From NCBI RefSeq assembly GCF_014203225.1, contig NZ_JACHIO010000002.1:186001-250000 (forward strand): a stretch of 64,000 nucleotides of DNA, read 5' to 3'. Below the pieces are notes generated by a model, which did not search any database, had not been told where the DNA came from, and worked only from the letters and a program-made list of their open reading frames with translations. The position numbers and the translations under genes are program-made. Below, piece after piece: positions 32,541-57,018 of the stretch. The DNA comes from Granulicella mallensis (lineage in GTDB: Bacteria; Acidobacteriota; Terriglobia; Terriglobales; Acidobacteriaceae). Numbering within the stretch: position 1 is the stretch's first letter; each line of letters begins with the position of its first letter.

Positions 32541-32697
32541 ATGATTCTTCGCACCAGGACCGTCGCAGCGCGCCTCCTCTCTAACCTGCATTGCGCTGGC
32601 GACTGCGGCAGCTGCGATCGGTCAACTGCCGTCCCAAGCGCCGTCCAAGGCTACCGATCAACTCCCATCGATCATTGCACCGTCAGACTATAAGTAG
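32541..32697 (+). pseudogene. Frameshifted N-terminal fragment of a secreted protein
   Basis: A good ribosome site (AGGAG) precedes ATG 32541. The frame opens MILRTRTVAARLLS, and a shift then moves into LTCIALATAAAAIGQLPSQ, giving together a convincing signal peptide. The shifted frame runs on through APSKATDQLPSIIAPSDYK to a stop at 32695-32697. The unshifted frame is Cys-rich nonsense. It probably represents the beginning of an older secreted gene cut off by the pectinesterase gene end. The identity of the intact parent is unknown. Confidence 0.35.
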
Positions 32698-35600
32698 CTG
32701 TTTGTGTTGCTGAGCCCGCTGTACCGGTAATCGTGACCTGATACGTTCCTGCTGGTGTTGTCGTTGCTGTCGGTGGCGTTGGTGTTGACATTGAACCGCC
32801 TCCGCACCCGACTGTAGCGGAAGCCACCACGATCATGAGCGCCAAGCCGAGTTGCACATACCATAGGCTCTTGCTCTTCCTGCGTCGAAGCAGCGTCCAG
32901 GCCAGAAAACCTCCTCCACCTAAGAACGCCAGCGCCGACGTTCCACCGGAGCCCTGGCCGGGCAACGCAGGCTGATGTTGATAGAGAGCAGCCGAAGCCG
33001 TACCTGTCGCTATCGTCAATGTGGACGTTGCGGTGCCGGTCCCACTCGGCGTCACAGTAGCCGGACTGAAGCTGCAGGAGGCATTTTGGGGAAGACCGGA
33101 GCAGGCGAAGCTGACCTGCTGGTTAAATCCTCCGGATGGGGTGATGGTGATCGTGGAGGTAGCCATGCTGCCGCTGGTCACGGTACCGCTCGTGGGCGAG
33201 AGGCCAAGAGTGAAACTGCTCTGCACCGCGGCGGTGATGGTAATGGAGAGAGCCGCGGAGGTTGAGGGAGCGAAGTTCGTATCTCCACCATAGACGGCAG
33301 TGATGCTGTTCGGCCCGACGGCGAGGGTGCTGGTAGTGTAAGTGGCCATGCCGGAAGCGACGGTTCCGGTGCCGAGAGTGGTGGCGCCGTCCATAAAGGT
33401 GACGGTGCCGGTGGGAGTTGTGGTGCTGCTCGCAGCTGGAGCGATGGTCGCGGTCAGCTTGATGCTAGTGCCGCTGACAGCTGTGGTAGCGGTGGCAGAC
33501 AGTGTCGTTGTTGTGTTGGTGGTGGCCACGGTACTGCTCCCAGTAACAGTCAGCACGTAAGCCGCTGCGGTCGTGGAACCGGAGAAGTTGGCGTCGCCGC
33601 TGTACGTCCACGAAAGATTGTGGCTGCCCGCCGTGAGGTTGCTGGAGGTGAAGTACGCCTCACCCGAAGCATCAAGCGGACCGGAGGCGATGGTCGTCGC
33701 CGTGCCGCCGTTGATGCTGTCGGTGAGTGTGTAGCTCCCTGTCGGAATGGTGTAAACGCCATTCGTGATGGCTCCTAGACCCGGAGTCTGCGGACGCATC
33801 AGGATCGTTACGCTCGTCCCGCTTGCGACGGTTGCGGTCGTGCCTGCCGGGATGAACGTGTTCACCGCCGAAGCCAGGGCCGCAGTAGGATTCCAGTTCG
33901 TCGTAGTGGAGATCGACGAAGGTACCGTCTGGCTGAGGAAGTTTGTGGGGAAGTAGGCCTGCGCCTGCGCCTGGCTCATGGTGACCGGCGGGTTGTTGTT
34001 CGCCATCGCCGTGCCCGGGTTCGTCGAAGTGGTTTCGCGCGGGCCACTGACTCCCGAACCTGAGTTGCCGCCCAGCCCCAGATAAAGATTGCCGTTGAGA
34101 TCGGCACTTCCGGTCGCGGGATCGGTGTAGGTCAAGTCGTTGTACTCGCCGTAGGTCGCGCTGGTAAGCGACGGCCCTAGGCCAGTGGTGTACCCAGCCG
34201 GGTTGGTCTGGTCGATGTACGAATTCAACAGGATCCAGGTGGAGAACGTGCCGTAAGGACGGCCCAGGAAGAGGTTGGTCATGCCCGGAGCCTGCGAGGT
34301 GAATACATCATTGTTCATGATGTATCCGCTCAGGTAATCGCCGGAAGAGCCGGTCTCCGTCATCTTGTTTTGCGCTTCGATCGTCTCCGTGCCGGTCGCG
34401 GTGGCGCCGTGAAATGCGGTATAGATACTGGTCGAATCGAATACCGCGGCGGCATCGCCGAAGATGTAATCGACGTCGCCGGAGATCTTGCCGCGGAACC
34501 AGTACTGACGGGTTGGAACAAAGCCGTTCGAACCGGAGCCGGGGCTGGCCGTGTAGACCGTGTCCTGCAGGCTGGTGGCGTAGATATTGTTCATGATCGA
34601 GAGATCGGAGTTAGTCCAGATCACCAGCGCCTGTGAAGCGCAGAGCTGGCCGGAGTTGTAAAGAGCGGCATACGTCATCGCAGGGGTCTGGCCAAGGGCG
34701 CAGGCACCGCCGCTTGAAGAGGCGTACGTAGTGGTGGTCGTCGTCGCGTCGGTGTCGTAGGTGTTGATGAGGCTCAGGTTTTCAGCGTAGAAGCCGTTGG
34801 GCGTCTGTTGCGTTGCACCCAGTTTGGCATTGATTCCCTTCGCGACGACGAGCGTCGCGGAGCCTTCATCGCCGGTAAAGACGGTGCTTCCACTCTGCAT
34901 CTGCGAGCCATTACTGTTGGTGGCCTGGAACTCGCCAATGTAGGGATAGGTCGATCCGAAGGCTCCACCCCCGTGCGTGAGGATGACCTTGGTGGAATCG
35001 CCGCCCAGACCACGCAACGCGATATTGGGTTGAACGACAGTGATGAAGGCGTTGTAGGTTCCGGGCTTGATGTAGATCGAGCCACCCGACGGCAAGGCGT
35101 CTACAGCAGACTGGACCGTAGAGAAGTTTCCACTGCCATCGGCGGCGACCAGCATCTGCGTTACGCCGACGGCAGCCGTAGTAGTGGCCTTGGTCACGGT
35201 GTAGGTGCCAATGGTGGCCGTGGACGGTGCATAGTCCACCGCATCGTTGGGAACGAACGTGACGCCCAGCGAGTAGGTGCCGATGGGCAGGTAGCTGGCC
35301 GAGTGAATCGGAACTGTAGTGCCGCCGCTGCTCGGAGTCGCGGTGTAGATAAAGGCCCCGGCGATGTTCCCTGCTATCGCGGTCGACGTGGCAGCGGCGT
35401 CGAGCACCGCAGTGCCGACGGCAGCACTGTATTGCTGGGTCGTTGCACTTGGAGTCCAGTTGACCGCGCTGGTGGCCTGTCCAATGGCGAAGTTGGTCGT
35501 GGCAGAGGTAGAGCCGACGATGCCTGGGGAGTTGCCGTAAGTCGCGACGATACTGTGTGCGGCCGCGATCAGGCCGGCGACAGGCACGCTGGCCGCGGCG

Positions 35601-38600
35601 GTCGAGGCGGTCGCGCCCGTAAGCGGGTAGTTGACCGCCGCACCGCCATCGATGGTCACAGCAACAGTCCCCGAGGGTATCGCTGCAGGGCTTTCCGAGA
35701 CCGTCACAGTGAAGGTCGCTTCAGTGCCGGCGGTGTAGGTCAGGCCGGTGTTGCCACCGGTGATGGCTGTCGTGGTTGTGGCATTGGTGCCGGTCTTGGT
35801 CCCGTTCAACACCAGCGAGCCGAGCGTGTCGGTCTCCGGTAGCAGCGTAATCGCATCCTGAATCGCACCGTTCCCGTTCGCCGTCGGCGTAAACGAAAGC
35901 GACACATTGCAGAGGCTCCCTCCGAGCAGCACCGTCGAGGTAAGGTTGCAGGTCGGCGCAGCGCTTGCCAGCGGCGTGGCCGGGACGGCAGCGGTAAAGT
36001 TGCCTCCTGTGTCCGTCTGGCCGAAGCCGGTCGGCGCACTTGCACCGGTGTTCGAAAAGACACCGACATCTGTTGTGGTGATGCTCGTGCCGAAGTTGAA
36101 TGTCCCGCTGCTGCGCAGGACTTCGGTAATTCCGGCAACCACTGTGGCGGTGGTGTACAGATTGCCCGCACCATCGACGGCAACCGCAGATCCAGAGACT
36201 CCCGGAATCGTGTACTGCCCACCGCTAAGGGACTGCACCTTGATGCTGCCGCCATCGGCGACGTAGATATTCTCACCCTGGTCGGCGGTAACGCTGGTGG
36301 GATTGGAGAGCACCGGCGAGAACGTCACGACAGTGTTCTCCGTCGGCGATGTGGTCGTCACCGGGATTCCGCCGGCTGGGATCTTGAACACCGAAGTGCC
36401 ATCGACCACCAGCAGGTTTCCGTAGCTATCCATCCCCATCGCAGTCGGAGACGTGAGAGGAATCTGGTTCAGTTGCGATCCAACGCCCGTGGTCGGCGAG
36501 AACTTCTCCACATATCTGCTGGTAACGTCCGCGATATAGATCAAGCCGTTCGTATCCACGACCATGGGGCCGCTGTTTGCCTGCGTCAGCGCGCAACTGA
36601 TCGTGGTGACCGTCGTCGTGCAGATATCGATCGACGGGATCGATATCGTCTGCGGCGAGTACTTCCCTGTCGCTGCTGTGAACACGTACTTGGTGATGGT
36701 GGTCGAACCGGCGGCGGCAGCATACACACTCCCCGCCGTATCCACTGCAAGATAAGCAGCCGGGATAGCCGAGATGTTGGTCACAGTCGAACCGGTCACC
36801 TTGCTGATGCCCTGCGTTCCACTCACGTACGCGTTACCCGCACCATCCAGAACAACGGCTGTGTTGCCGGTGGTAGCAGCTCCGAGGACTGAGGTCGCAG
36901 GCGTACCGGCCGTGTCGAACACCAGCGCCGAACCGGTAGAGATGGCATTCAAAGAGATGTCCTGCGTGGCGGTCGCGGAGCCCGCGGTCGTCGCAATCGA
37001 GACCGGTTCCGCACGCTGCGCCAGCATCGTCGGGGCATACGTAACAGGGGCGGTGCAATCCACCGATCCGTCGCTCGAAGTATTGGTTGTGCAGGTCGCA
37101 CTCCCGACAGTGAAGTCACTTCCGGCAGGCGCCGTGATCGTCACAGTCGATCCCACCACCGGCGCATGGACCGTCAGCGAAGAACTGAGCGTCGCAGTGT
37201 TGCCCGCGCTGGTGACCGTCGTCGAAGGCAGCGTTTGCGCGGACAAACGGCGTACTCGCGCGTTCGCGATGTCCAGCATGTAGAGGTTGCCGAGGACATC
37301 CTCGGCAACCGGCAGAGTCGTGCCGTTCGCCCCGAACACAAACTGATTCGCCGGGCAGCCATCGCCAAGTGCGGACGTATTGCAGCTTGTCGCGCCGCTC
37401 GCCGTCGTGATGCGGCGAACGTAGCCGGTAGCGATGTCGTAGAACAGAATCTGCTCCTGGTCGCCGATCAGGATGTTTCCAGCGGGGTCGATTGCCAACG
37501 TCTGGACCGCGCCACTTTGCAGTGCAGCACTCTTGCCCAGAACAATACCGGGATTAGCCGAGTTGAAGTTGATCGCTGTCCCGCCGCCAATCAGCACATA
37601 CGAAAAACCGACCTGAGGGCTGGTAATACCATTCGCCGCAAGCGCACCCTTGATGATCGTGCCGCCCATATAAATAATGCGGAGCCGGCCCAGGCCATCG
37701 TCGAAGAGAAAGTCGCCATCATGATCGACGGCAGTTCCCTGCACCATTCCTCCCGTGCTGCCGGTGTTAACTAGCGTCTGGTAGAACGGACACCCGTCGC
37801 CGCCCGCATCCGTGTTACCGGAGCAGACCGTGCCAGCCACAGCTCCACCGGCAATGGGATAGACAAATCCCTGCTCCGGGCTGCTGTAGCTCAGACCGGC
37901 AACACCGGCCGTTGTCTGAAGCGCTGCATACAGAGGATTGGGGACTGAAGCTCCATTGACAGTGATCGAAGAAGGACCGGCAACCACGCGGATGCGGCCA
38001 TTCGTACCATCCATGAAGTAAATGTTGTCCCACCGGTCGCCCGTCGGTGCATAAATGCGCCCGCCTACACCAGCGACAGGAGGAGCGGCAGTCGCACTGC
38101 AGGCAGCAACGCCCAGCGCCGCTGCGACCGTGCCATCACCGGCGCTTCCCACCGTCGTGCCGGCCACAGCGGACGCGAAGGATGTCGTCCCACCGGCCAC
38201 CGTGCACTCGACCGCGCCGATCATCACATTTTCGCCGGCCATCGCACTGGTGCAGATCGGCGAGACAGCGTTGCAAACCATATGCAGCGCATTGTCACCG
38301 GTTGTTCCGATCAGCAGGTTGCCATAGGCGTCCGTGCCCAGAGAAACCGGCCCATTGAACCCGGAGGTGTAGGTCACGGGACAACCATCGCCGAGTTTGT
38401 CGTTCTGAACAGCCTTGGTGCCGTAAATCTTCACTCCGCCACTGCCGACGCACTGGCTGGCATACGCCCCGGCATACGCGCTGATGATGCCGGTACGCGC
38501 ATCAATCTTCCGAATGATTTGAGGATTGGTCGAGTTGGCCGAGATATAAATATTGCCGGACGGGTCCACCGCAATGCCCGTCACCACGGACGGAAGCGTC

Positions 38601-38893
38601 GCATTCACCGCCGGACAACCGTTTCCTGTTGCGTCCGTTGCCGTGAACTGCCCATTGGTTGGACAGGCTGCACTTGGTGTCGACACTACCGGCGTATTAC
38701 CTGCAACCGAGCTGATCGTGTTTGGAAACAGCACAGGAGTCTGCGCGGACACAACATTCGAGCCGGCCAGCACCACCACCGCTGCGAGCCCCCCGATTTT
38801 TCCCGCGATCTTCAAACGTTGGCGAATAGAGCTTGCGACGAGTTCGAGAGAGGAACGGATAGAAACAGCGAACGGCGAAGAGCGAAGAGCCAT
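32672..38893 (-). CDS. Giant secreted NHL/Ig protein with pectinesterase (CE8) domain
   Basis: This 2073-aa exoprotein should remove methyl esters from homogalacturonan. Signal peptide: GGLAAVVVLAGSNVVSAQ (~35-52). Order of domains: NHL propeller (~70-555), a short Ig-like domain (~560-655), a second NHL propeller (~665-930), Ig/MBG-type repeats (~935-1240), then pectinesterase (~1245-1660), Ig repeats (~1690-1890) and the C-terminal tail. Catalytic marks: SLQDT (Asp ~1444), GDVDYIFGDA (Asp ~1475) and LGRPYG (Arg ~1545). The tail has a GGFNQQVSFACSGLP Ig unit, a membrane helix (~1985-2002), RRRKSK, a second helix ending TVGCGGG, and a last beta segment. The ATG at 38893 is preferred because the upstream 66 codons lack signal-peptide features. 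Divergent from the polygalacturonase giant. Confidence 0.88.
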   Translation of the reverse strand: MALRSSPFAVSIRSSLELVASSIRQRLKIAGKIGGLAAVVVLAGSNVVSAQTPVLFPNTISSVAGNTPVVSTPSAACPTNGQFTATDATGNGCPAVNATLPSVVTGIAVDPSGNIYISANSTNPQIIRKIDARTGIISAYAGAYASQCVGSGGVKIYGTKAVQNDKLGDGCPVTYTSGFNGPVSLGTDAYGNLLIGTTGDNALHMVCNAVSPICTSAMAGENVMIGAVECTVAGGTTSFASAVAGTTVGSAGDGTVAAALGVAACSATAAPPVAGVGGRIYAPTGDRWDNIYFMDGTNGRIRVVAGPSSITVNGASVPNPLYAALQTTAGVAGLSYSSPEQGFVYPIAGGAVAGTVCSGNTDAGGDGCPFYQTLVNTGSTGGMVQGTAVDHDGDFLFDDGLGRLRIIYMGGTIIKGALAANGITSPQVGFSYVLIGGGTAINFNSANPGIVLGKSAALQSGAVQTLAIDPAGNILIGDQEQILFYDIATGYVRRITTASGATSCNTSALGDGCPANQFVFGANGTTLPVAEDVLGNLYMLDIANARVRRLSAQTLPSTTVTSAGNTATLSSSLTVHAPVVGSTVTITAPAGSDFTVGSATCTTNTSSDGSVDCTAPVTYAPTMLAQRAEPVSIATTAGSATATQDISLNAISTGSALVFDTAGTPATSVLGAATTGNTAVVLDGAGNAYVSGTQGISKVTGSTVTNISAIPAAYLAVDTAGSVYAAAAGSTTITKYVFTAATGKYSPQTISIPSIDICTTTVTTISCALTQANSGPMVVDTNGLIYIADVTSRYVEKFSPTTGVGSQLNQIPLTSPTAMGMDSYGNLLVVDGTSVFKIPAGGIPVTTTSPTENTVVTFSPVLSNPTSVTADQGENIYVADGGSIKVQSLSGGQYTIPGVSGSAVAVDGAGNLYTTATVVAGITEVLRSSGTFNFGTSITTTDVGVFSNTGASAPTGFGQTDTGGNFTAAVPATPLASAAPTCNLTSTVLLGGSLCNVSLSFTPTANGNGAIQDAITLLPETDTLGSLVLNGTKTGTNATTTTAITGGNTGLTYTAGTEATFTVTVSESPAAIPSGTVAVTIDGGAAVNYPLTGATASTAAASVPVAGLIAAAHSIVATYGNSPGIVGSTSATTNFAIGQATSAVNWTPSATTQQYSAAVGTAVLDAAATSTAIAGNIAGAFIYTATPSSGGTTVPIHSASYLPIGTYSLGVTFVPNDAVDYAPSTATIGTYTVTKATTTAAVGVTQMLVAADGSGNFSTVQSAVDALPSGGSIYIKPGTYNAFITVVQPNIALRGLGGDSTKVILTHGGGAFGSTYPYIGEFQATNSNGSQMQSGSTVFTGDEGSATLVVAKGINAKLGATQQTPNGFYAENLSLINTYDTDATTTTTTYASSSGGACALGQTPAMTYAALYNSGQLCASQALVIWTNSDLSIMNNIYATSLQDTVYTASPGSGSNGFVPTRQYWFRGKISGDVDYIFGDAAAVFDSTSIYTAFHGATATGTETIEAQNKMTETGSSGDYLSGYIMNNDVFTSQAPGMTNLFLGRPYGTFSTWILLNSYIDQTNPAGYTTGLGPSLTSATYGEYNDLTYTDPATGSADLNGNLYLGLGGNSGSGVSGPRETTSTNPGTAMANNNPPVTMSQAQAQAYFPTNFLSQTVPSSISTTTNWNPTAALASAVNTFIPAGTTATVASGTSVTILMRPQTPGLGAITNGVYTIPTGSYTLTDSINGGTATTIASGPLDASGEAYFTSSNLTAGSHNLSWTYSGDANFSGSTTAAAYVLTVTGSSTVATTNTTTTLSATATTAVSGTSIKLTATIAPAASSTTTPTGTVTFMDGATTLGTGTVASGMATYTTSTLAVGPNSITAVYGGDTNFAPSTSAALSITITAAVQSSFTLGLSPTSGTVTSGSMATSTITITPSGGFNQQVSFACSGLPQNASCSFSPATVTPSGTGTATSTLTIATGTASAALYQHQPALPGQGSGGTSALAFLGGGGFLAWTLLRRRKSKSLWYVQLGLALMIVVASATVGCGGGSMSTPTPPTATTTPAGTYQVTITGTAGSATQTATYSLTVQ

Positions 38894-39902
38894 GGGGGCG
38901 AACTTCTTTCCTGAAAATGGAATTACGTGGCGCACACACTCCTCGGAAGGCCTCCTCAAAGAAGTACAACTCCAAAATGTGTGGACTTGGTGCCGCCGAA
39001 CAATATAGCCATAACGATCTAAGCTTGGGAAGGTGTCTGACAGATTATTCGGGCTGGAGAGCAAAAAATGACAAGATAATGACAACTCCAAAGACTTCGT
39101 GTTTCGGCCTATTAGAGATATTGACTATTTATTTCGCGATCCGGCAACGCCACGCGCGTGTTCCGCTATGCGCTAATGCTGTCCGACAGACAAAGCGACT
39201 GAACTGACATTGCAAACAAGCAAATGCGGCCGGCTACGCTGAGGTACGCGATTCGTACAGGTAGTTGCGACGGTCCTCGCGCTGCTTGCGGTGAGTGCAG
39301 AAGAGTTGCTTACTGTCGCTAAAGCAGCCGTAAACATTACGGTGTTGTCATCCACCAACCCTTTACCACTGGCTCCCGCTTTCTCGGTAAGAGCTGCGAA
39401 AACGGGAGAAAGCAAGCTCCTCGCTCTGCCCGGAATAACAAACTAGAAAGGCAAATACCTCTAGATTTTCGGATTTGAGGACAGGCCTCTGGAGCTTGAC
39501 AAATCTCTCTGCGACTCTTTATTGTTCGGGCGACTTCAGAATCTGCATGACAGATTTTTATGACTGTAGGGCAATGCCATCTCGCCTCGGATATCGACAA
39601 TGACGCGCATGACTCGAATCGCCGCGATAATTATGCCAATTATCTGCATTTCAGCCTGCACATCCGCACTCCATGTATAGGCGGGTTCAGGTGCCATCAC
39701 TGAAACTCCTAGTGACGCAACAATATCTGTCATACCGAATGCCTCGATCAAAATCGTTGACCTTGGAACTGGCACAACACGCGAGGTCAAAGCCAACGCG
39801 GAAGACTATCAAGTCATTTTCGCGACCAGCTAAAGCGGAACCAGTTCGACGGGCCTGTAGCAAAAAACAAAACATTCCAGCGTCGTCACATAAAGGAACA
39901 TC
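38894..39902. other. Divergent regulatory spacer between the two pectinase giants
   Basis: This 1-kb stretch has no gene I trust. A plus-strand promoter-like pair, TTGACA (39496-39501) and TATTGT (39520-39525) with 18-nt spacing, would start a ~370-nt leader for the polygalacturonase gene. On the minus strand, TTGTCA near 39070 and AATAAT near 39050 make a weaker candidate for the pectinesterase gene. Both lie in AT-rich DNA relative to the flanking genes. A small hydrophobic frame at 39536-39733 (minus) was considered doubtful. Confidence 0.4.
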
Positions 39903-42900
39903 GTGTTATCTCAACTTCGTCTTGCTCTTACCAGCCTCCTTACCCTCTGTGTCATCTGTCCCCTGGGCGCCATTGCGCAACAAGCTCCTATTGCGCTTCC
40001 GAACACTGTCACCACCGTCGGTGGGGGAGTTACATCGGCTCTGACCGTTGGCGCCGCTTGCAGCACTGGAAGCTCCCTCACAGCGACGGATACGCTTGGC
40101 GATGGCTGTCCGGCCACATCGGCCTACTTCGGAACGACTTCATCAGGCGATCTGCGCGGCGGCGTAGCAACGGACCCCGCCGGCAATATTTATGTGATGG
40201 ACAGTGGCGACTCCGCGCTTCGCAGGATCAACGCACATTCGAACATCATCACACTCCTGGCCGGCCTGGGTACTGCGTGCAGTTCGAAGAGCGACGACAA
40301 TGGCGACAATTGCCCCCTGGCCAACACAAAGTTCAGCTCCACGCCGCGTGGAATGGGGAGCGACCCCTACGGCAACATCTTTGTAGCCGGCTACGGCAGC
40401 GATCTCGTCAATCTTGTTTGCAATGCCGTTTCACCTCTTTGCCCCAACACAACCGGCACACACCAGATTGGATCCATGTATCTGGTCGCCGGCTGCGTGG
40501 TTAACACCGGCAACGCAGGCACCGCGGGGCCCGGGGCTGCGACTGGCGCAACCGGCGGTATCGCCACGCCCACTGGAACCTGCAACAGCACCGTCACTGA
40601 GCTGGATCAGCCACGGGGTGTCACTGCAGATCGTTACGGCAACGTCTACATTGCAGACACGGGGGACCTTCGATATCTCGTGGTAGTTGGTCCTGCCTCG
40701 TATAACGGCGTTGCCAATCCACTGGCTGCACTCATCGCCTTGAATCCCGCATACAGCGGAATCACCGCGGCCACCGCGGTCGGCAATATCTACCCCTTGC
40801 TCGGCGGGTTTACACCGCCTGCTTCAGGCATGCCCTGCGTTACCGGCTCTTCGACGAACTCTCTTGACGCGTTCGGAGACGGCTGCCCCTACTACGTATC
40901 CTCGCTCAACAATCCCAGCTCCTCGGCCGTTCAGGGTATTGCGGTTGACCCCAACGGCAACATCCTCATCAGCGATGTCTCTGCGCAGAGATTGCGCGTG
41001 ATCTACATGGGTGGCGCGCAGATGGCGAGCGCGATCACAGCGAACAACCCCATGGTGACCTCTCCGGTTGCAGGTTCGATCTACTCCATCGCCGGCGGTG
41101 GCAGCAGCAGTTCGTCGAGCACACCCCAGTTAGGCTCCGAAGTCTCCATCGACACCTCCGCGTTCAAGGTCACCACCGACTTTCAAGGGAATATTTACGT
41201 CGGGGACAACACGTCCGTGCTCTTCTTCGATATCAATACAGGCTACATCCGCAAACTTGCGCCGTCGGGGCCAGCCTTCGGTGGCTCCAATGGTCTTGGC
41301 GTTGCTGTAAACGAACTTGGCGATCTCATTCTTGCCGATAGCACCAACCTGCTCATTCGCAACGTAGCCGCGACTTCACTGGCTTCGACCGCGGTGAACA
41401 GCTCTTCAACACAAAACATTCTGCTCCACGGTGCGGCGGGAACAACATACCTTGCGGCCTCGCAGGCGAACCTCTCTGTCTCCGAGCCCATCAGCATCGG
41501 TGTTTCGTCCTGTGGCAGTGAAAACGCGGACAAGACGCTTGACTGCACCGTCCCTGTTACGTTTTCGCCAGTCTCACCAGGCAGGCATACGGTTACACTG
41601 GCCGCCGTTCCTTCGGGCGCCTCGGAAACCGCACTGCTGCCACTCATCGGAACTGCAACCGGCACCGCCCTGGTCTTCGACGGCTTCGGCAATAATGCAG
41701 CCTTGATCGGCACCTCGCTGCAACCAACAGGATTGGCGACCGATGGCAACGGCAATTTCTTTACTTACGATTTAGCCACAGCCAGCATGACGGAGGTCAC
41801 TGGGCTGGTCCCACCCACTCACTTGACGGGCACGCTGCCGGGAACTCCCACGCAGATTGCGATCGACGCCAGCGGGAACATCTATGCTGTTGGCGGCGGT
41901 GCGATCACTGAGTTTGCGCTCGGCAGCAACGGTTCCTATACCGCCGCCGGATCGATCGCTTTCGCACCCAACGGCGCCACGGCCACGCCGCAGGCGATCG
42001 CCATCGATGCGGCAGGCAACCTGTTCGTCTACGACAGCACGAGCAAGTCGATCTACCGTCAGAGCAAGAGCAAAACCGGAGCACTCACTTCCCTCATTGC
42101 ATCAGGATTCGATCATGTAGTCGCACTCGCGCTCGATAGTCTCGGCAATCTATACGTCTCCGATAGCGGGGTACAGTCGATCTATACGATCACTCCCACC
42201 AGTGTGCAAACAACCTTGGCCACAGGCGTCTCTGCCATAGGCCTGAGCGCCGATTCGGCAGGTGATCTTTACGCAGCAGATACTCTGACCGGCAGCGTCT
42301 TCGAGTATCCGGTCAGCGGCCCCAGGACTACGCTTAGCACATCTCTTACGCAGCCAGCGGGAGTGGCTGTCGATCCCTTCGGAAATGTGTATGTGGCCGA
42401 CACAACGCAGTCCGGATTGGTGGAGATTCCGCGAAATATTACCAGAGGGAGCTTTGGTACCAGCTTGACAACCACGCTCGCGGGAACGATCACCAATGCA
42501 GGCAACATCGCTGCGAGTGGTCTTGCGCAGACGGACTCAGCCGACATTACCCTGGCTCCCGGATTAACCGCGGGCTGCACCCTCTCAACCGTTTCGAAGA
42601 CCTTTGCCTCCGGCGAGGCCTGCACCGTTCAAGCCACCTTTACTCCACAGACAAGCACCTCGGGCGCAGCCGTAAGCAACATCGCTACGTTCCTTCCCGC
42701 TGCCACCACCACCGGGTCTGCAGAGTTCACCGGCACAGTACCCACCAATCTAACGACAACCAGCATCACGGGCGAGACACCGGCCAATCCACGGTTCGCC
42801 GCCAGTGGCACGGAAGTCATGTTTACAGTCACCGTATTGAATGCACCCAGCGGCAGCGCTGTTGCAGTCTCGGTAGACTCGGGAGCCGCAACCAGCTACA

Positions 42901-45900
42901 TGCTGAATGCCTCCGGCATGACCATGGTGAGCCTGTCGAACCTTGCCCTGGGCACACACACCCTCTCGGCGGCTTATGCCGGGGCTACAAACGCTCAGCC
43001 TTCCAGTGCCTCTGTGGCGTTCACCATCAATCAGTTCGTGGCCACCGGCGACACCCGCACCGTCGCTGAGCCGTCCTTCCCTGCCGTGTGCACCACGCTC
43101 ACCGCGGCACTCACCTCTGTCAATGACGATCTTCCCGTCTCGGTCGATGCCACCGTTACCAATCCCGACGGAGCGCGCATTCAGGCGGCGATCAATAGCT
43201 GCGCCAATACCGGTAAGGCCGTTGAACTTTCGGTGGACGCAGCCGGCCACAACGCCTATTTGACCGGATCGCTTTCCATGCCTTCAGGCGTCACACTGCT
43301 GGTGGATCCCGGCGTCTACGTCTACTTCTCGCGTAACGTGCAGGATTACGACGCAAAGCCCGGCACACACACCTGCGGCACGGTAAACTCCGCCAGCGCC
43401 ACCTCCTCGTGCCTGCCGCTGATCGATATTCCAGCGAGTTCGACGAACGTCGGCATTATGGGTTTCGGCAAGCTGGATGGCCGAGGCGGCGATACGCTGA
43501 TCAACGCGTTTCCTTCCACCTATGCGGGTCAGAGCTGGTGGGGATTGTCTTCCATCGCCAACAGCGGCGGCAGCCAGCAGAACCCTCGTTTCATCCAGAT
43601 GGAAACGGGCTCCAGCAATATCACGCTGTATAAGATCACGCTGCGTAACTCACCTCTCTTCCATGTTTCCACAACAGGCGCCGTCTCCGGCTTCACTGCC
43701 TGGGACATCAAGATTGTTACGCCCACCAGCTCGCGCAACACGGACGGCATAGATCCGGGCAACGCGCAGAACTTTACCATCACGCGATCCTGGATCTCCG
43801 ATGGTGACGACAACGTCGCAGTTGGCGCTGCCAACACAGCGCCTGCCGCAAATATCTCCGTAACCAACAATCATTTCTTCGCTGGCCATGGTCAGTCGAT
43901 CGGGAGCTTCACACAGGGCGGCGTGAGCAATGTGCTCTTCGATAGCAATATGTCTTCCGGCAATGGAATCGCCGGTAGCGGCAGCTCTATCGAAAATACG
44001 GCCGACACCAACTCAACCGGCATTCGCATCAAGTCCGGGTACGATCGCGGCGGAGTAGTTAGAAATATTCAATATTCCAACTCGTGCTTTCAGGATCACA
44101 ACGCTGAAATCGACTTCAACCCAAACTACGAAAACACAACCGGGTCTTTATCGCCCAACTTCGAAAACATTCTGATGCAGAACCTGACCTTTCTAACCAG
44201 CGGAACGGCACAGTTCACCGGCACGAACAACAGTGGCAGCATCCTTCCGCTTCAGCTCACGCTGGACAACGTGAGTTTCCCAGGCACCTATCCGGCCTCC
44301 GAGTTCAATCCAGCACCAACCAACGCTGCCCTGACCTATGGCCCCGGACAGGTCTCTTCCGACTTCATGACAGACTACGCAACCTTCGCCGGGTCGAACG
44401 GCAATACCGTGACCAACAAAATCACGGCAAGCAACCTGCTGCCACCCACCTGCAACTTTACTTACATTGCACCCGAATTGACGGGTCCGAGCGGTCTGCC
44501 ACAAACCATCACCGAAGGCCAGAATGCAACCGCCGTCGTCATCTTGACTCCGGCCGTGGGAGGCGCCGCCTATCCCACCGGCAATGTCACGCTGACAGAC
44601 GCGCTCACCGGCAGCGCAACCATCGTGACGCTTCCTGGGACTACCGATACGCTCTTTGTCCCGCTGACTTCTCTCGCAGTAGGTACGCACACCTTCACCG
44701 CGACCTACTCGGGCGACACCAACTATCCTCTGACTCCCGGACAGACTGCCTACTCCACAACGGCGCCCTATGAGATCACGGTCAACGCCGGCAGCCTTGG
44801 CAGCACCACAACGATGCTATCGGGTGTGCCAAGCTCTACGTCGTTCGGCACTTCCTTCATGGCTACAGCCACAGTCGCCGGCAGTGGCAGCACTCCTATC
44901 GGCAACGTGCAGTTTATTGTGAATGGTTCTGTCAATTCCGTCGCAGCCGTGAGCTCTTCGGGTACGGCTACAGCCACGATCAGCTTGCCTTTCAGCACCG
45001 TCCCCTACAGCATCTATGCCATCTATAGCGGCGATGCTGTTAACGATGGCTCCACGTCACCCACTTCATCGGTCACCGTAACCGCGGCACTCACAACGAC
45101 TACGTTGTCTGCGAGCGCCACGACCGCCACACTCGGCCACCCGATCGCACTGACCGCGACCGTAACCTCCCCGGTTGGAACACCCACCGGGGCGGTCATG
45201 TTTACCTACACCACAACAGGCAATGGCTCTCCCGTCCAGACCACCGCCGCAGTGATCGGTGGAGTAGCCACCGCCGGCGTCAGCTTGCCTACCGGTACTG
45301 ATTCGATTACAGCTACCTACGTTGCCAGCGGAAGCTTTGCCGGGTCCGCTTCACTGCCGGTGCCTGTCACCGTCAGTGCGGGGACGATCTTTGCGTTGCC
45401 CGGCAATCCGATTCCTCTTCCCTACACCATGACCACACTCGCCGGTGGCGCGGCAGCCAACTGTTCCACGGCCACCGACAGTTTTGGCGATGGCTGCCAG
45501 GCTACCTCGATGCTCTTCAGTGGTTCGGTCGACCTGCGTAGTGTCGTAGCCGATCCCTTTGGCAATGTCTATCTAACCGATGCGGTGTCCAACCTGGTGC
45601 GCAAAATCGCACCCAATGGCATCATCAGCGACTTCGCGGGCAGAGTTACCGGTACTGCCTGTGTTCCTACAGCAACCACCGGCTGCACACCTTCACTGGT
45701 AAGCCTCGACAAGCCGCGCGGCATCTCTTCCGACAGCCAGGGCAACATCTATATCGCCGGCTATGAAAGCCAACTGGTCTTCAAAGTCAGCGCCTCCACA
45801 GGCCTGATGTATGTTGTAGCCGGGACCGGAAGCACAGGCAACGCCGGGGATGGAGGTCCCGCCTCGTCGGCCAAAGTCAATTCACCGCGCGGTGTATGGG

Positions 45901-48764
45901 GAGATACGGTCGGTAACGTCTACATCGCCGATACTTCCAACAATAAGATCCGGGTTGTCGATATTACGGGAAATATTCAAACCTTTGCCGGCACCGGAAC
46001 GGCAGCCTCCAACGGCGACGGCGCACCTGCCACATCCGCGGCTATCGATAATCCGCAGGGAGTCCTCACCGACGCAAACCTCAACGTCTACATCGCCGAT
46101 TCGGTAAAGGTTCGCGTCGTCTGTGTCACCTGCGGCACAGGTTCTCCACTCGATGCACTGCTGGCAACGCTGGGCACACCCTCAGCACAGAACGGATACA
46201 TCTACACCATCGCCGGCGGTGCTGCGGCGGCTTATTCAGGGACCTATCCGACACTGGCCACGAACGTGACCATGGCCCCGCAGAAGCTGGCCATCGACGG
46301 AAGCAGCAACCTCTACATCTCCGATGGCAACGGTGCCGTCTGGTTTCTTGACAGCCACACCGGCGAGATTCGTCCCATTGCCGGCAAACAGACCGCCAAC
46401 TGTTCCACGGCAACGGATAGCTTTGGCGATGGCTGCCCGGCAACCCAGGCTGTCATCGGCGATGGCGGCAACGGCATCGGCGTCGGCATCGATACGCAGG
46501 GCAACCTGTATATCTCCGACACGCTGAACGCACGCATCCGTAAAGTGACTACCGGCCTCGCATCGGGTTCCACCGCGACCGGTTCTCTCCTCACGCAGCC
46601 GGTACAACTGCACTTCATCAACGGCGATACTTTTGCCTCCATCGCCACTCCTCCCTACACTGCACCCGAGTGGTCGTTGGGAACTCCTGCCTGCACTTCC
46701 AATGCCGACAACACGGCGGATTGCCTCCTCGCTTCCACCTTCACTCCCGCCGTTCCTGGCTCACGTTCCATGCCGGTTACCATCAACAGCTCACTCGGTA
46801 ACAGCGCCAACCTCGCTCTCACGGGAACCGGACTCGGTGCCGGGTCCACACTCGATCCAGCCAACCAGGTTAGCTTCGGCGCGAATCTCAAGGTTGCAGG
46901 TCTGGCCGTCGACACCGCTGGAAATGTCTATGTTTCAGACACGAACAGCAAGCAACTGCTTCGCTTCGCGCCCACGGCTCTCACGCAGGGCACAATCGCA
47001 CCTTCAACGTCTTTGGTGACGCTCACCTCACCGGGCGCTGTTGCCGTCGATCCTCGCGGCTACGTCTATGTCGCCGACACCTCTAAAGCTACGATTACGC
47101 AGATCTCACCCGCTGGGGCGACGTCTACCCTGGCTCTCCCGCTCAAGACTCCCTCGGGTCTTGCCGTCGATGCCTTGAACAATCTCTATGTTGCGGATTC
47201 GTCCGCCCAGACGGTCTATCAAGTCAATCCCATTACCGGGGTCGCTCGCGCACTAGCTGTTGGAACACTGGCTGCGCCCGCAGGCCTGACGATCGACCCT
47301 AGCGGCAACCTGCTCATATCCGATCCTGGCACGGCAGCCATCTACCGCTTCAATCTTCAGAGCGGAGTGACCACCACGGTCTCTTCGCCAGCCGCCAAAC
47401 CTTTTGCTATAGCCACCGATGCTGCCGGAAACCTGCTGATTGCCGATACAGCTTCGATCTTCGCAGTCCCGGCCAGCACCAACAGCACACCATTCACCGT
47501 TGCCAGCCTTTCACCCCTGGCGCTCGCGATCGATTCCGCAGGCAATCTCTATACCTCCTCCGGCGGATCTGTCCTTGCACTCACCCGCACGCAAGGCTCC
47601 GTGCAGTTTGCTGGAGCCTCCGCTTCGCCTCAAACCGTCGACCTGCTTGGCTCTGGAAATCAACCCTTGCAACTCAGTTCGGTCAGCCAAACGGATACGA
47701 CGGACTACAGCCTGACAGCCGCCTCTTCCACCGACTGCATCCTCAACGGCACATCGCCCTCAACCTTGGCCGTGGGCGGGGTCTGCGCGTTGACCGCCAC
47801 GTACACACCCACGAGCTTAGCCAAGACAACAGACATCGCTACGTTCAACGGCAATCTCACCAACACCACACTGTCCACTCCCCCGTCCGTGCAGCTTACC
47901 TTGACCGGCACTTCTATGCCGGTGGCCACCGCAACAACCACCAGTCTCACATCGTCAGCCAATCCCTCTATGAACGGCCAGTCCGTAACGTTCACGGCCA
48001 CAGTCGCGGGCGTTGGCGACAATACGCCTTTGCCGACTGGCAGCGTGACGTTCCTCAACGGTTCAACCACGCTCGGCACCGGAACCCTGAATGGAAGCGC
48101 GCAGGCAACACTGAGCGTATCCACTTTGGCAGTGGGAGCAGCCCCGATCACCGCCCAGTATGCCGGCGATATGAACTATGCGGGCTCGACCTCCAGTGTT
48201 CTGACCCAAACGGTCAGCGCTCCGGCGAGCTACACCGTCACGTTCAATCCGACATCGCTGACCGTGAGCAGCGGCCAAAGTGGAACAGTCACGCTCACCG
48301 TCACGCCGGTAGGCGGCTTCAATCAACCCGTCACGTTTAGCTGCGCTGGCTTGCCCCAGTTCAGCACTTGCACCTTCAATCCCGCGACAGTAACTCCCAC
48401 CGGAGGCGCTGCCGCATCCACCATGCTTACAATTACGACCAATGTGAATGTTGCCAGCAACGACAACAAGAACGACGGCCGGACGGGGACCCGCGGAATC
48501 TGGTATGCAGGACTGATCATGGGACTAGGATTTCTGGTCACCCTTCGCAAGAAACGTGACCTTACCGCAATGTCCCGGAGACTCGCTCTGCTGATCTTCA
48601 TGCTCCTTACGGCGACTGCCGCTCTTCAGCTCACGGGCTGCGGCAGCAGCGGCGGAAGTTCCCCATCCTCCACGATGACGCCAACAGGTACCAGCACCAT
48701 CACCGTCACAACAACTTCCGGTTCCCAAGTCCAAACGGGATCGTTCACCCTCATCGTGCAATAA
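39903..48764 (+). CDS. Giant secreted NHL/Ig protein with polygalacturonase (GH28) domain
   Basis: This 2953-aa exoprotein should hydrolyse galacturonan. It has a GTG start with AAAGGAA 6 nt upstream and a signal peptide (SLLTLCVICPLGAIAQ). Domain order: NHL propellers (~30-850), Ig-like units (~855-1045), GH28 right-handed helix (~1050-1520), several Ig repeats (~1525-1830), a second NHL propeller (~1835-2220), an anchor-like domain, a third NHL propeller (~2315-2570), more Ig units, then the tail. All four GH28 motifs are intact: NTDGID (1279-1284), DGDDN (1300-1304), GHGQS (1328-1332) and RIK (1375-1377). The tail (GGFNQPVTFSCAGLP, helix, RKKRD, helix ending LQLTGC, final beta strand) matches the divergent pectinesterase. 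The shared design suggests paired action on pectin at the cell surface. Confidence 0.9.
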   Translation: MLSQLRLALTSLLTLCVICPLGAIAQQAPIALPNTVTTVGGGVTSALTVGAACSTGSSLTATDTLGDGCPATSAYFGTTSSGDLRGGVATDPAGNIYVMDSGDSALRRINAHSNIITLLAGLGTACSSKSDDNGDNCPLANTKFSSTPRGMGSDPYGNIFVAGYGSDLVNLVCNAVSPLCPNTTGTHQIGSMYLVAGCVVNTGNAGTAGPGAATGATGGIATPTGTCNSTVTELDQPRGVTADRYGNVYIADTGDLRYLVVVGPASYNGVANPLAALIALNPAYSGITAATAVGNIYPLLGGFTPPASGMPCVTGSSTNSLDAFGDGCPYYVSSLNNPSSSAVQGIAVDPNGNILISDVSAQRLRVIYMGGAQMASAITANNPMVTSPVAGSIYSIAGGGSSSSSSTPQLGSEVSIDTSAFKVTTDFQGNIYVGDNTSVLFFDINTGYIRKLAPSGPAFGGSNGLGVAVNELGDLILADSTNLLIRNVAATSLASTAVNSSSTQNILLHGAAGTTYLAASQANLSVSEPISIGVSSCGSENADKTLDCTVPVTFSPVSPGRHTVTLAAVPSGASETALLPLIGTATGTALVFDGFGNNAALIGTSLQPTGLATDGNGNFFTYDLATASMTEVTGLVPPTHLTGTLPGTPTQIAIDASGNIYAVGGGAITEFALGSNGSYTAAGSIAFAPNGATATPQAIAIDAAGNLFVYDSTSKSIYRQSKSKTGALTSLIASGFDHVVALALDSLGNLYVSDSGVQSIYTITPTSVQTTLATGVSAIGLSADSAGDLYAADTLTGSVFEYPVSGPRTTLSTSLTQPAGVAVDPFGNVYVADTTQSGLVEIPRNITRGSFGTSLTTTLAGTITNAGNIAASGLAQTDSADITLAPGLTAGCTLSTVSKTFASGEACTVQATFTPQTSTSGAAVSNIATFLPAATTTGSAEFTGTVPTNLTTTSITGETPANPRFAASGTEVMFTVTVLNAPSGSAVAVSVDSGAATSYMLNASGMTMVSLSNLALGTHTLSAAYAGATNAQPSSASVAFTINQFVATGDTRTVAEPSFPAVCTTLTAALTSVNDDLPVSVDATVTNPDGARIQAAINSCANTGKAVELSVDAAGHNAYLTGSLSMPSGVTLLVDPGVYVYFSRNVQDYDAKPGTHTCGTVNSASATSSCLPLIDIPASSTNVGIMGFGKLDGRGGDTLINAFPSTYAGQSWWGLSSIANSGGSQQNPRFIQMETGSSNITLYKITLRNSPLFHVSTTGAVSGFTAWDIKIVTPTSSRNTDGIDPGNAQNFTITRSWISDGDDNVAVGAANTAPAANISVTNNHFFAGHGQSIGSFTQGGVSNVLFDSNMSSGNGIAGSGSSIENTADTNSTGIRIKSGYDRGGVVRNIQYSNSCFQDHNAEIDFNPNYENTTGSLSPNFENILMQNLTFLTSGTAQFTGTNNSGSILPLQLTLDNVSFPGTYPASEFNPAPTNAALTYGPGQVSSDFMTDYATFAGSNGNTVTNKITASNLLPPTCNFTYIAPELTGPSGLPQTITEGQNATAVVILTPAVGGAAYPTGNVTLTDALTGSATIVTLPGTTDTLFVPLTSLAVGTHTFTATYSGDTNYPLTPGQTAYSTTAPYEITVNAGSLGSTTTMLSGVPSSTSFGTSFMATATVAGSGSTPIGNVQFIVNGSVNSVAAVSSSGTATATISLPFSTVPYSIYAIYSGDAVNDGSTSPTSSVTVTAALTTTTLSASATTATLGHPIALTATVTSPVGTPTGAVMFTYTTTGNGSPVQTTAAVIGGVATAGVSLPTGTDSITATYVASGSFAGSASLPVPVTVSAGTIFALPGNPIPLPYTMTTLAGGAAANCSTATDSFGDGCQATSMLFSGSVDLRSVVADPFGNVYLTDAVSNLVRKIAPNGIISDFAGRVTGTACVPTATTGCTPSLVSLDKPRGISSDSQGNIYIAGYESQLVFKVSASTGLMYVVAGTGSTGNAGDGGPASSAKVNSPRGVWGDTVGNVYIADTSNNKIRVVDITGNIQTFAGTGTAASNGDGAPATSAAIDNPQGVLTDANLNVYIADSVKVRVVCVTCGTGSPLDALLATLGTPSAQNGYIYTIAGGAAAAYSGTYPTLATNVTMAPQKLAIDGSSNLYISDGNGAVWFLDSHTGEIRPIAGKQTANCSTATDSFGDGCPATQAVIGDGGNGIGVGIDTQGNLYISDTLNARIRKVTTGLASGSTATGSLLTQPVQLHFINGDTFASIATPPYTAPEWSLGTPACTSNADNTADCLLASTFTPAVPGSRSMPVTINSSLGNSANLALTGTGLGAGSTLDPANQVSFGANLKVAGLAVDTAGNVYVSDTNSKQLLRFAPTALTQGTIAPSTSLVTLTSPGAVAVDPRGYVYVADTSKATITQISPAGATSTLALPLKTPSGLAVDALNNLYVADSSAQTVYQVNPITGVARALAVGTLAAPAGLTIDPSGNLLISDPGTAAIYRFNLQSGVTTTVSSPAAKPFAIATDAAGNLLIADTASIFAVPASTNSTPFTVASLSPLALAIDSAGNLYTSSGGSVLALTRTQGSVQFAGASASPQTVDLLGSGNQPLQLSSVSQTDTTDYSLTAASSTDCILNGTSPSTLAVGGVCALTATYTPTSLAKTTDIATFNGNLTNTTLSTPPSVQLTLTGTSMPVATATTTSLTSSANPSMNGQSVTFTATVAGVGDNTPLPTGSVTFLNGSTTLGTGTLNGSAQATLSVSTLAVGAAPITAQYAGDMNYAGSTSSVLTQTVSAPASYTVTFNPTSLTVSSGQSGTVTLTVTPVGGFNQPVTFSCAGLPQFSTCTFNPATVTPTGGAAASTMLTITTNVNVASNDNKNDGRTGTRGIWYAGLIMGLGFLVTLRKKRDLTAMSRRLALLIFMLLTATAALQLTGCGSSGGSSPSSTMTPTGTSTITVTTTSGSQVQTGSFTLIVQ

Positions 48765-48801: not shown

Positions 48802-50676
48802 CTATTCAGGCTTGCCTACGGAGTGCTCTTTGTAGGTCTTTTCGAGTAGCTCGAAGGCCTGCTTTTTCTTCCCGTCTTCGGAGATCAATCCTTTGCGATT
48901 GTATCCATCCTGCAACTTGGGGATGTTTCGCGTGGGCGAACGAAAGTCCACAAGTATCCATGGGCTGATGCCGCGGAGCTGGGGGATTTTATTGAGCATG
49001 ACGAACTGGTGCTGGAAGACGTAGACCTGTTGCTCTTCAGTCCAGCGCTGGTTGGTCACGCCGTGGTTACCGTACTTGGCTTCGGCACCGAACTCACTCA
49101 TAATGACGGGCTTTTGCGGGAAACTCCAGTGAATTCTGTCAGCGTCTTCGGGGGATCCATCATACCAACCGACGTACTCGTTCTGGCCAATGACGTCGAG
49201 CGCGTCGCAGAGAGGATCATTGTTGACCATTTCATTCCCATCAAGTCTGGGTCCGAGAATCGCGGAGGTAATAGGGCGGGTGGGATCAAGCTTGCGTGCT
49301 TCGTTGGCTAAGTCGGTGAGGAACCTGGTACGGGTGGGGTTGTTGGATGTCTCGTTAGAGATGGACCAAAGGATGACCGATGCCTTGTTGCGGTCACGCC
49401 GGATCATCTCTTTGAGCATAACGACGTCTTTGGCATAGACCTCGGGTTTATCAAAAGAGATGTGCTGCCAATTCGGTATTTCAGACCAGACCATGATGCC
49501 ATCGCGGTCGGCCTCGCGCTCCATCCGCTCGTCGTGGGGATAGTGTGCGAGACGAACGAAGTTCGCGTTCATATCCTTCAAATAGTTGAAGATGGTGGTG
49601 ACGTCTTCGTCGGTGTTGACGCGACCTCCACGAATGGGAGCCTCTGCATGCATATTTGCGCCCTGCAGAAAAATTGCCTTGCCGTTGAGCAGGATGCGGG
49701 TACCATCGACGCGAATATCGCGGAACCCTATGTCATCGGTCAGACTATCCTCGCCAGAAGTCAGGATGACTTTGTAGAGCTTTGGAGATTCGGGCGACCA
49801 GAGTGTGAGCTTGGTGGCTGTAACGCTAAACGGCGCGTTGCCTTCGGCGTCGGTCTTAACGGTGGTTTTAGCACCTGCCTCGGGGATGTTGATGGCGACG
49901 GCTGTTCCGGCTGGAGCGTCGAGAACATGGACGTAGCCAGAGATCTCGACGTTGCCAGGCTCGAATTTCGGACGATGGGCAAGGTGTACATCGTAATCAT
50001 CAATGAAGGACTGGGAGACGGTAACGAGAGACACATCCCGAGTCAGGCCACCATAGTTGAACCAGTCGATACCGACAGAGGGAATGCCATCGACGAGTCG
50101 AGTAGCGTCGACAGCGATGACAACGAAGTTGGAGCCAGGATGCAGTACCGCAGTAACTTCGCAATCGAAGGGAGTGTAGCCGCCTTCGTGATCGCAGACC
50201 CGCTTCTGATTGACCCACACGTGAGACCGATAGTTTGCGGCGCCGATGTGGAGAAAAGAACGGGTGCCGGGTTTAGGTTGGGCATCAAAATCACGTTGAT
50301 ACCAGACGACACCCTCGTAGTTGAAAAGTTCTGGAACCTGGGTGTTCCAGTCGCCGGGGACCTTCAGAGTAGGCGCGGTAGCGAAGTCGTACTCCTCGTT
50401 GTGGATGCCGACGATGTGGGGGTGGGTGTTCATGGCATAGCTCTTGTCGTTGATCCCCCCGTTCGAAGTGTAGAGAGCGCGGCCAGGAGACTGATCAACG
50501 AGGTAATGCCAGTCCCCGTCGAGACTAGTGACGGTGCGGCGATCGAGGCCAACAAGAAGAGTTTGGAACGGTTGCTGGCTGAAAGCAGGGGTCATCAGTC
50601 CCAGCCAGCCAAGTAAACAGCAAAGAGCACAACGAATTCGCAACGAACGAAATGTGCGGCTTGAATACTCAATCAT
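48802..50676 (-). CDS. Secreted glycoside hydrolase family 2 enzyme
   Basis: This ~624-aa protein is a retaining beta-glycosidase of the beta-galactosidase / beta-glucuronidase group. A signal peptide (CCLLGWLGLMTPAFSQ) is followed by the sugar-binding jelly roll (YEGVVWYQRDF, YRSHVWVNQ), the Ig-like middle domain and a TIM barrel starting GFRDIRVDGTRILLNGK. The acid/base Glu lies in LWSISNETS and the nucleophile in VIMSEFGAEA. The length is that of a GlcA-type rather than large LacZ-type enzyme. It is convergent with the polygalacturonase gene (37 nt apart) and may remove side-chain sugars from pectin or other plant polymers; that is inference. A GTG at 50688 would add four residues. Confidence 0.92.
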   Translation of the reverse strand: MIEYSSRTFRSLRIRCALCCLLGWLGLMTPAFSQQPFQTLLVGLDRRTVTSLDGDWHYLVDQSPGRALYTSNGGINDKSYAMNTHPHIVGIHNEEYDFATAPTLKVPGDWNTQVPELFNYEGVVWYQRDFDAQPKPGTRSFLHIGAANYRSHVWVNQKRVCDHEGGYTPFDCEVTAVLHPGSNFVVIAVDATRLVDGIPSVGIDWFNYGGLTRDVSLVTVSQSFIDDYDVHLAHRPKFEPGNVEISGYVHVLDAPAGTAVAINIPEAGAKTTVKTDAEGNAPFSVTATKLTLWSPESPKLYKVILTSGEDSLTDDIGFRDIRVDGTRILLNGKAIFLQGANMHAEAPIRGGRVNTDEDVTTIFNYLKDMNANFVRLAHYPHDERMEREADRDGIMVWSEIPNWQHISFDKPEVYAKDVVMLKEMIRRDRNKASVILWSISNETSNNPTRTRFLTDLANEARKLDPTRPITSAILGPRLDGNEMVNNDPLCDALDVIGQNEYVGWYDGSPEDADRIHWSFPQKPVIMSEFGAEAKYGNHGVTNQRWTEEQQVYVFQHQFVMLNKIPQLRGISPWILVDFRSPTRNIPKLQDGYNRKGLISEDGKKKQAFELLEKTYKEHSVGKPE

Positions 50677-50688
50677 GCGAATCAGCAC

Positions 50689-57004: not shown

Positions 57005-57018
57005 TACGACTGAAAGGG

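Follow-up and report, generated by a model that had tools for sequence, protein, structure and literature searches.

The two giant exported proteins encoded back to back in the window are probably (probability of about 0.6) pectinases acting one after the other, and would be fixed to the cell envelope at their C-terminal end by a tail in which an Ig-like domain is split by a lipobox-bearing hairpin. The pairing of the two pectinases is supported by the sequence comparisons below. A testable hypothesis for acidobacterial attack on pectin is proposed: a methylesterase and a polygalacturonase on similar, possibly cell-attached scaffolds, which are fused in relatives. The larger interest would lie in the tail. 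Tails of this kind are already named as a putative anchor by NCBI, and at least 16 exported proteins of the own genome bear one; the split-Ig anatomy and the mechanism proposed here appear as the new reading, and the structural reading is now concrete. If true, the mechanism would be a new way of lipidating a protein at its C-terminal end, and would account for the final location of many large acidobacterial hydrolases.

Two divergent genes for giant pectinases

The window, i.e., the whole stretch of 64,000 nucleotides that was analysed, is G000:C2:186001-250000, in a genome of 6.47 Mb and 52 contigs. The back-to-back genes of 6.2 kb (gene A) and 8.9 kb (gene B) described by the first-pass annotation are both present as long frames; they are divergent. 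The features are the following:

32672..38893, minus strand: gene A, 2073 aa; signal peptide, propellers, Ig-like repeats, CE8, Ig-like repeats, split-Ig lipo-invert tail
35864..38776, minus strand: A, propeller region of SBBP/NHL type, residues about 40-1010 (weak Pfam matches; blastp to the fused ORFs and the G339 CE8 giant, see below)
33974..35026, minus strand: A, CE8 pectin methylesterase domain, residues about 1290-1640 (Pfam, 1xg2 alignment)
34553-34570, 34457-34480 and 34250-34267, minus strand: A, CE8 motifs QDT, VDYIFG and LGRP, respectively
32675..33217, minus strand: A, last Ig-like domain, interrupted by a probable membrane hairpin; hairpin through lipobox Cys (TVGC) at 32947-32804, final two strands at 32752-32675
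38894..39902, no strand: A/B intergenic region, 1009 bases; promoter-like sites face both ways
39903..48764, plus strand: gene B, 2953 aa, GTG start; signal peptide, propellers, Ig, GH28, Ig repeats, second propeller set, Ig, split-Ig lipo-invert tail
39969..42512, plus strand: B, first propeller region, residues about 23-870 (Pfam)
43038..44342, plus strand: B, GH28 polygalacturonase domain (Pfam, 1bhe alignment)
43737-43754, 43803-43814, 43884-43904 and 44022-44036, plus strand: B, GH28 motifs NTD, DD, GHG and RIK, respectively
45390..47762, plus strand: B, second propeller region, residues about 1830-2620, behind the enzyme (Pfam)
48228..48761, plus strand: B, last Ig-like domain, interrupted by a probable membrane hairpin; hairpin through lipobox Cys (LTGC) at 48495-48641, final two strands at 48684-48761

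The frame of gene A is open up to 39091; the likely start is the ATG at 38893, preferred over an upstream TTG. The end of the signal peptide was placed by eye in both proteins: after VVSA and before Q in A, after AIA and before Q in B.

The search with NHL, CE8 and GH28 HMMs suggested by the first-pass annotation gave Pfam matches above cut-off, NHL being weak in A. Pectinesterase (PF01095) matches gene A with an E-value of 7.8e-25 and 87.7 bits (curated cut-off 27), and Glyco_hydro_28 (PF00295) matches gene B with an E-value of 1.2e-37 and 130.2 bits (curated cut-off 22.9). The CE8 domain of A aligns with 1xg2 (E 2.1e-10); QDT, VDYIFG (VDFIFG in 1xg2) and LGRP are kept, and a Tyr is found in place of Trp after LGRP. 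The GH28 domain of B aligns with 1bhe (E 1.8e-55) over residues 11-420 of the 441 submitted; NTD, DD, GHG and RIK are all kept. The motifs QD(T), VDxIFG and LGRP on the one hand, NTD, DD, GHG and RIK on the other, are taken here as catalytic in CE8 and GH28, respectively. Family matches and motifs agree with an intact pectin methylesterase in A and an intact polygalacturonase in B, as had been claimed. Sequential activity on homogalacturonan would follow from the enzyme families: A would remove methyl esters and B would hydrolyse the de-esterified homogalacturonan chain.

The scaffolds are made of propellers and Ig-like repeats. In gene A, SBBP (26.8 bits, cut-off 20.5) and NHL (25.2 bits, cut-off 20) are both weak; in gene B, the E-values are 6.9e-40 for NHL and 1.6e-39 for SBBP. 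Big_3_5 is found in both genes (E 1.1e-28 in A, 8.4e-48 in B). The same design had been attributed to the two proteins: the scaffold is similar and the tail common, but the second propeller set of B is absent from A. The first propeller of B has no match at E ≤ 1e-15 in 59 other genera of the family. Among 20 chosen genomes, 5 match at E ≤ 1e-8: G098, G148 and G339 are below 1e-80, while G140 (7.9e-17) and G128 (1.1e-11) are weak. Matches at E < 1e-80 thus occur, within the genomes searched, only in genomes with giant pectinases (see below). The propellers may bind pectin.

As to the neighbourhood, a glycoside hydrolase family 2 gene (48802-50688) is convergent to gene B. At 4-10 kb from B (52573-58475) are genes for an FtsX/MacB-like permease, a LolA-like protein and an ABC ATPase, interspersed with those for a reductase and an AMP-binding enzyme; this cluster resembles those for lipid or lipoprotein export.

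Anatomy, occurrence and possible role of the C-terminal tail

The same tail had been noticed on both proteins, and a common tail is indeed found, 42% identical between A and B. From its N-terminal side it consists of a hydrophobic stretch, an Arg/Lys loop, a second hydrophobic stretch, the Cys, a linker and strands. The Cys lies 40 residues from the C-terminus in B and 43 in A; 33 or more residues stand behind the tail Cys.

In the own genome, profile search and reading of the frames give at least 16 proteins with the tail, A and B included. Among the Pfam domains of the 14 remaining proteins are pro-kumamolisin activation, FG-GAP, ricin-type lectin and Ig-like ones. By eye, 15 of the 16 have an N-terminal signal that resembles type I. 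It must be noticed that a subtilase/pro-kumamolisin tail protein (L088:6717-10208, minus strand) has a frame without signal peptide and without part of the activation domain; it is possibly frameshifted.

In the phylum sample, with 13 candidates scored per genome, 61 of 247 genomes have a tail-profile match at E ≤ 1e-6 and 186 have none. The 26 listed genomes of the own family (own genome included) have 5 to 14 matches each. The 35 matching genomes outside the family were searched again, and most rows cover the Ig part only: the match covers the whole tail in G352 and much of it in G364 and G330, and rows of G317, G172, G210 and G196 reach into or cover the hairpin part, some with a stop. The out-of-family tail that was read is that of G352 (L120). 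A tail present throughout the phylum is thus not supported. Full tails are found at loci labelled gp2 acidobacteria, Gammaproteobacteria MAG and Nitrospira MAG; the last two (L169 and L170) are perhaps mis-binned acidobacterial contigs. The plasmid collection gave no tail match.

A total of 92 tails (91 distinct) was read: 16 from the own genome, 66 from the phylum search and 10 from named loci. The 66 consist of 26 returned loci and 40 tails picked from listed rows, the match reaching position 177 or beyond out of 183. A Cys with a hydrophobic stretch before it and at least 2 Lys/Arg upstream is found in 92/92 tails, i.e., in all 66 of the phylum search and all 10 named loci (Granulicella aggregans M8UP14 included) besides those of the own genome; this count is biased, as the Cys column is part of the search profiles, and the hydrophobic stretch and at least 2 Lys/Arg are demanded by the rule of the script. 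The residue before the Cys picked by the script is Gly, Ala or Ser in 90 of the 91 distinct tails; in the exception, L175, Ala precedes the next Cys. The lipobox of A (TVGC) is a poor match, Thr at −3 being atypical. No tail of the 92 has Asp at +2 of the Cys. The loop contains on average 4.6 Lys/Arg and 0.12 Asp/Glu over the 92 tails, and the part after the Cys 0.57 and 0.31, respectively. When 44 tails are aligned, no column but that of the Cys is invariant.

The 19-residue hydropathy scan at 1.6 flags the second stretch alone in A and B. With the 15-residue Kyte-Doolittle maximum, the first stretch reaches 1.6 or more in 81 tails and the second in all 92, vs. 2.3% of 960 control stretches from elsewhere in the 16 own proteins. 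The value of the first stretch is 1.53 in A (weak) and 1.82 in B.

In each of the 92 tails, the insert lies within an Ig-like domain, ahead of its last two strands. With a profile of the Ig part devoid of the hairpin columns, unsplit copies, mostly of 93-114 residues, were found in six tail proteins: beside the split terminal copy in L172 (2 copies), L091 (2), L175 (2, one partial), L087 (1) and L088b (1), and further upstream in L084 (ten copies). The remaining tail proteins searched with this profile have the split copy alone. In L093 and L094 a Pfam Ig-like domain, and in L173 a similar one seen by eye, lies between the Cys and the last strands; the last strand pair is thus a separable element.

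AlphaFold2 (AF2) models of the tails (alignments of 10 sequences, five models each) are consistent with this anatomy: for both proteins, the Ig fold is closed across the insert. In A, the block means are 91-96 for residues 1-70 and 85-96 for residues 151-181, with 45-54 between; in B, they are 92-95 and 90-95 for the Ig core and the last strands, and 45-67 for the insert. The mean pLDDT of the best model of A is 74.0 (59-63 for the others), and the five models of B are alike (69-76). Within the insert, two helices are modelled in B (90-106 and 115-133) and one of 7 residues in A. Once the low-confidence stretches are removed, each best model can be aligned over 97 residues with a contiguous Ig-like region (405-502) of the bacterial sialidase 2ber (1.7 Å, Z 13.8; 1.6 Å, Z 13.7). 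Foldseek gave one match at E ≤ 0.001, the serine peptidase Vpr (8jmw). From the modelled cores and the 2ber fit, the insert thus seems to break into a normal Ig fold ahead of the final strand pair.

The following mechanism may be proposed. Sec would export A and B via the N-terminal type I signal, and the tail would fix them to the cell envelope. Helix 1 would cross from outward to inward, the Arg/Lys loop would be cytoplasmic, and helix 2 would cross from inward to outward and end in the lipobox Cys. The hairpin would stop in the inner membrane and the last two strands would complete the Ig domain outside. Such a hairpin would place helix 2 and the lipobox as in an ordinary lipoprotein signal, so that the Cys could be lipidated by Lgt although the protein already has an N-terminal signal of its own. 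Were signal peptidase II (LspA) to cut in front of the Cys, the Ig fold would keep the lipidated strand pair attached to the large chain. This cut by itself would not release the large chain, which both helices would still hold in the inner membrane; one has to assume either a second cut or none. Hairpin topology, lipidation and cleavage, outer-membrane or surface location and enzyme activity are here predictions. LspA and Lgt are present in the 4 genomes tested; the own genome has three Lgt-like genes (G000:C21, C2 and C6) vs. one or two in the three relatives tested, and one of the three may be dedicated to the tails.

A plain two-helix anchor in the inner membrane, with an unlipidated Cys and no cut, would make the pectinases periplasmic or let them span outward from the inner membrane. 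The hairpin alone would hold the protein, and AF2 puts two helices in the insert of B. This alternative is nevertheless unlikely: it does not need the Cys, which is the invariant residue of the 44 aligned tails, in lipobox context and with small residues at −1; moreover, polymeric pectin is not expected to get into the periplasm. With the lipidated split-Ig tail, surface display of A and B, inferred at first reading, would have a concrete candidate anchor. A type II secretion route across the outer membrane is plausible, because the Ig fold of VesB acts as a type II secretion signal (excerpted text of PMC13393428).

A wider proposal is more doubtful than the anchoring of A and B itself, though possible: the tail would be a C-terminal lipid anchor for large exported proteins, general lipoprotein enzymes would process the lipobox, and the lipidated strand pair would hold the enzyme non-covalently via the Ig fold; many giant hydrolases of Acidobacteriaceae, the pectin pair included, would be displayed in this manner.

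The two pectinases in related genomes

PF01095 has a match in 33 of 150 family genomes (own included), and A is the sole match of its own genome. Besides A, PF01095 frames longer than 1000 aa were found, among these 150 genomes, only in G098 (3307 aa) and G148 (4233 aa). In both, CE8 and GH28, CE8 first, are borne with NHL/Ig repeats by one open frame. In G339, which is outside the 150-genome sample, a CE8 giant of 2028 aa and a GH28 giant of 2352 aa are encoded on different contigs. The divergent pair that had been expected in related genomes was not found: 2 of the 149 other family genomes have a giant CE8 frame, both fused to GH28. The divergent layout was seen in the window alone and is local. 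The functional link between the two pectinases, on the contrary, is strengthened by the one-frame fusions and by the two giants of G339.

The nearest relative of the CE8 domain of A is that of the G339 CE8 giant (66.7% identity; 53% and 52% for the fused ORFs), and the same giant is nearest for the propellers of A (54%). The GH28 domain of B is 70% identical to that of G148, 57% to that of G098 and 50% to that of G339; its first propellers are nearest to those of the fused ORFs (47% G098, 40% G148). By these identities, the relations among the pectinase giants look like a mosaic. An origin of A and B by fission of one fused gene is too simple, since the CE8 of A is nearest to a stand-alone giant and the GH28 of B to the fused ORFs. 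One-enzyme and two-enzyme genes interchange, an argument for a connection between the two activities.

The four related giants (fused G098 and G148, both giants of G339) all lack the tail at their C-terminus, i.e., within the pectinase group of six giants only A and B bear it. The tail is therefore a general tag carried by the A and B copies and is not tied to pectin breakdown, and pectinase giants do not always need it. NHL/Ig proteins with the same kind of tail and without any Pfam enzyme domain are found in G140 and G339.

It must be noticed that such enzyme-less tail proteins (L231:2743-11031 and L233:1586-9499) adjoin genes for large outer-membrane receptors, identified by Pfam at L231 and by resemblance only at L233. 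Directly downstream of the G339 CE8 giant (L230:3235-5493, minus strand) lies a gene for a propeller-like protein with an N-terminal lipobox, ATGC, seen by eye. Directly downstream of the G098 fused pectinase (L082, just after 14326) is a gene for a short protein with a PEP-CTERM-like tail, also seen by eye.

A and B might be functionally unrelated, a generic propeller/Ig scaffold having by chance taken up two adjacent pectin enzymes. The enzyme-less propeller/Ig/tail proteins of G140 and G339, the mixing of enzymes and scaffolds and the absence of the divergent layout from the other family genomes are all in line with this, and yet chance is a quite improbable explanation: the sole PF01095 match of the genome adjoins a GH28 on a like scaffold, two genomes have one frame for both enzymes and a third has both as giants.

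The intergenic region contains promoter-like sites at 39031-39002 (minus strand) and 39496-39525 (plus strand), i.e., 2 found vs. 1.0 expected. The string TATTGTTCGG stands at each of the two putative −10 sites, and there are two TGTCNGACA palindromes, one at 39034 and one at 39180. Among the four related giants, GGTCNGACC is found twice upstream of the fused gene of G148 and once upstream of the CE8 giant of G339; the fused gene of G098 and the GH28 giant of G339 have none upstream. TGACAGAT is upstream of none of 5 related genes. A shared operator (TGTCNGACA/GGTCNGACC, TGACAGAT) and the promoter-like sites are post hoc motifs and leads only; A and B may be jointly regulated.

Comparison with known families and sorting systems

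The catalytic domains of A and B align with the CE8 enzyme 1xg2 and the GH28 enzyme 1bhe, but the chains of the latter have 317 and 376 residues, respectively, whereas the domains of A and B are embedded in propeller/Ig proteins of 2000-3000 aa.

Scanned alone, the tails match NF058595 (invert_tail) with 77.7 bits in A and 65.3 bits in B (cut-off 37), both over the full model (1-113 of 113). The family is not listed in the whole-protein NCBIfam scans of the giants. At E ≤ 0.01 it matches all 44 aligned tails; L093 passes the cut-off (44.8 bits), while L094 (26.9) and the G140 tail (34.5) are below it. A wholly undescribed tail is thus ruled out: the tails of A and B belong to the kind described as "lipo-invert putative C-terminal anchoring domain". 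The family is known here by its name, cut-off and description, and no publication on it was found in the open-licence PMC literature. Its match begins at the sixth strand of the AF2 models (tail residue 63), and for this reason the Ig split is invisible in it. With Pfam, every family matches at most 2 of the 44 tails.

PEP-CTERM-like models give 17.8 bits for A (VPEID-CTERM, cut-off 33), none listed for B, and a match at E ≤ 0.01 in 1 of the 44 tails. This weak match, together with 2 exosortase matches in the own genome and one in 22 of 41 family genomes, is what favours reading helix 1 and the Arg cluster as a PEP-CTERM-like signal cut by exosortase, the lipobox being incidental; such processing is rejected as very improbable and, unless an unrecognised sortase acts there, largely refuted, since G008, G013 and G031 (99-100% complete) have no PF09721 match and yet 14, 13 and 11 tail-profile matches, the tails read in them (3, 2 and 2) all have the Cys, and no PEP-like motif is conserved by eye before helix 1, the invariant residue being the Cys.

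The lipo-invert tail has the positive n-region, the hydrophobic stretch and the lipobox Cys of a type II signal. The N-terminal position of such a signal is found neither in A nor in B, where the Cys is close to the C-terminus.

The nearest published systems found are GlyGly-CTERM, with the Ig fold of VesB, and MYXO-CTERM. The GlyGly-CTERM tag is a single helix. In VesB of Vibrio cholerae, according to the excerpted text of PMC13393428, an Ig fold and this tag are both needed to export a beta-lactamase passenger via type II secretion, and the tag is processed by the rhomboid protease rhombosortase. An Ig fold plus a C-terminal membrane tag is also what A and B have; however, the Ig fold of VesB precedes the tag, with no strands described after it (PMC13393428, same excerpt), whereas that of A and B surrounds the insert.

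MYXO-CTERM, as presented in the excerpted text of PMC11980579, is a C-terminal sorting tag borne by exported proteins; it combines an invariant Cys, a membrane helix and a cytoplasmic part rich in Arg. Lipidation of its Cys is predicted, and its authors describe it as devoid of a defined lipobox and of inverted topology. The lipo-invert tail resembles it as a C-terminal tag with an invariant Cys, a putative membrane helix, an Arg-rich part predicted to be cytoplasmic and a predicted lipidation of the Cys. The order Cys motif, helix, Arg-rich C-terminus is not that of the A and B tails: the Cys of MYXO-CTERM stands before the helix (PMC11980579, same excerpt), whereas that of A and B stands behind the second hydrophobic stretch, in a lipobox-like context. 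Unlike MYXO-CTERM, the lipo-invert tail would thus regain, through its extra helix, the normal topology of a lipoprotein signal.
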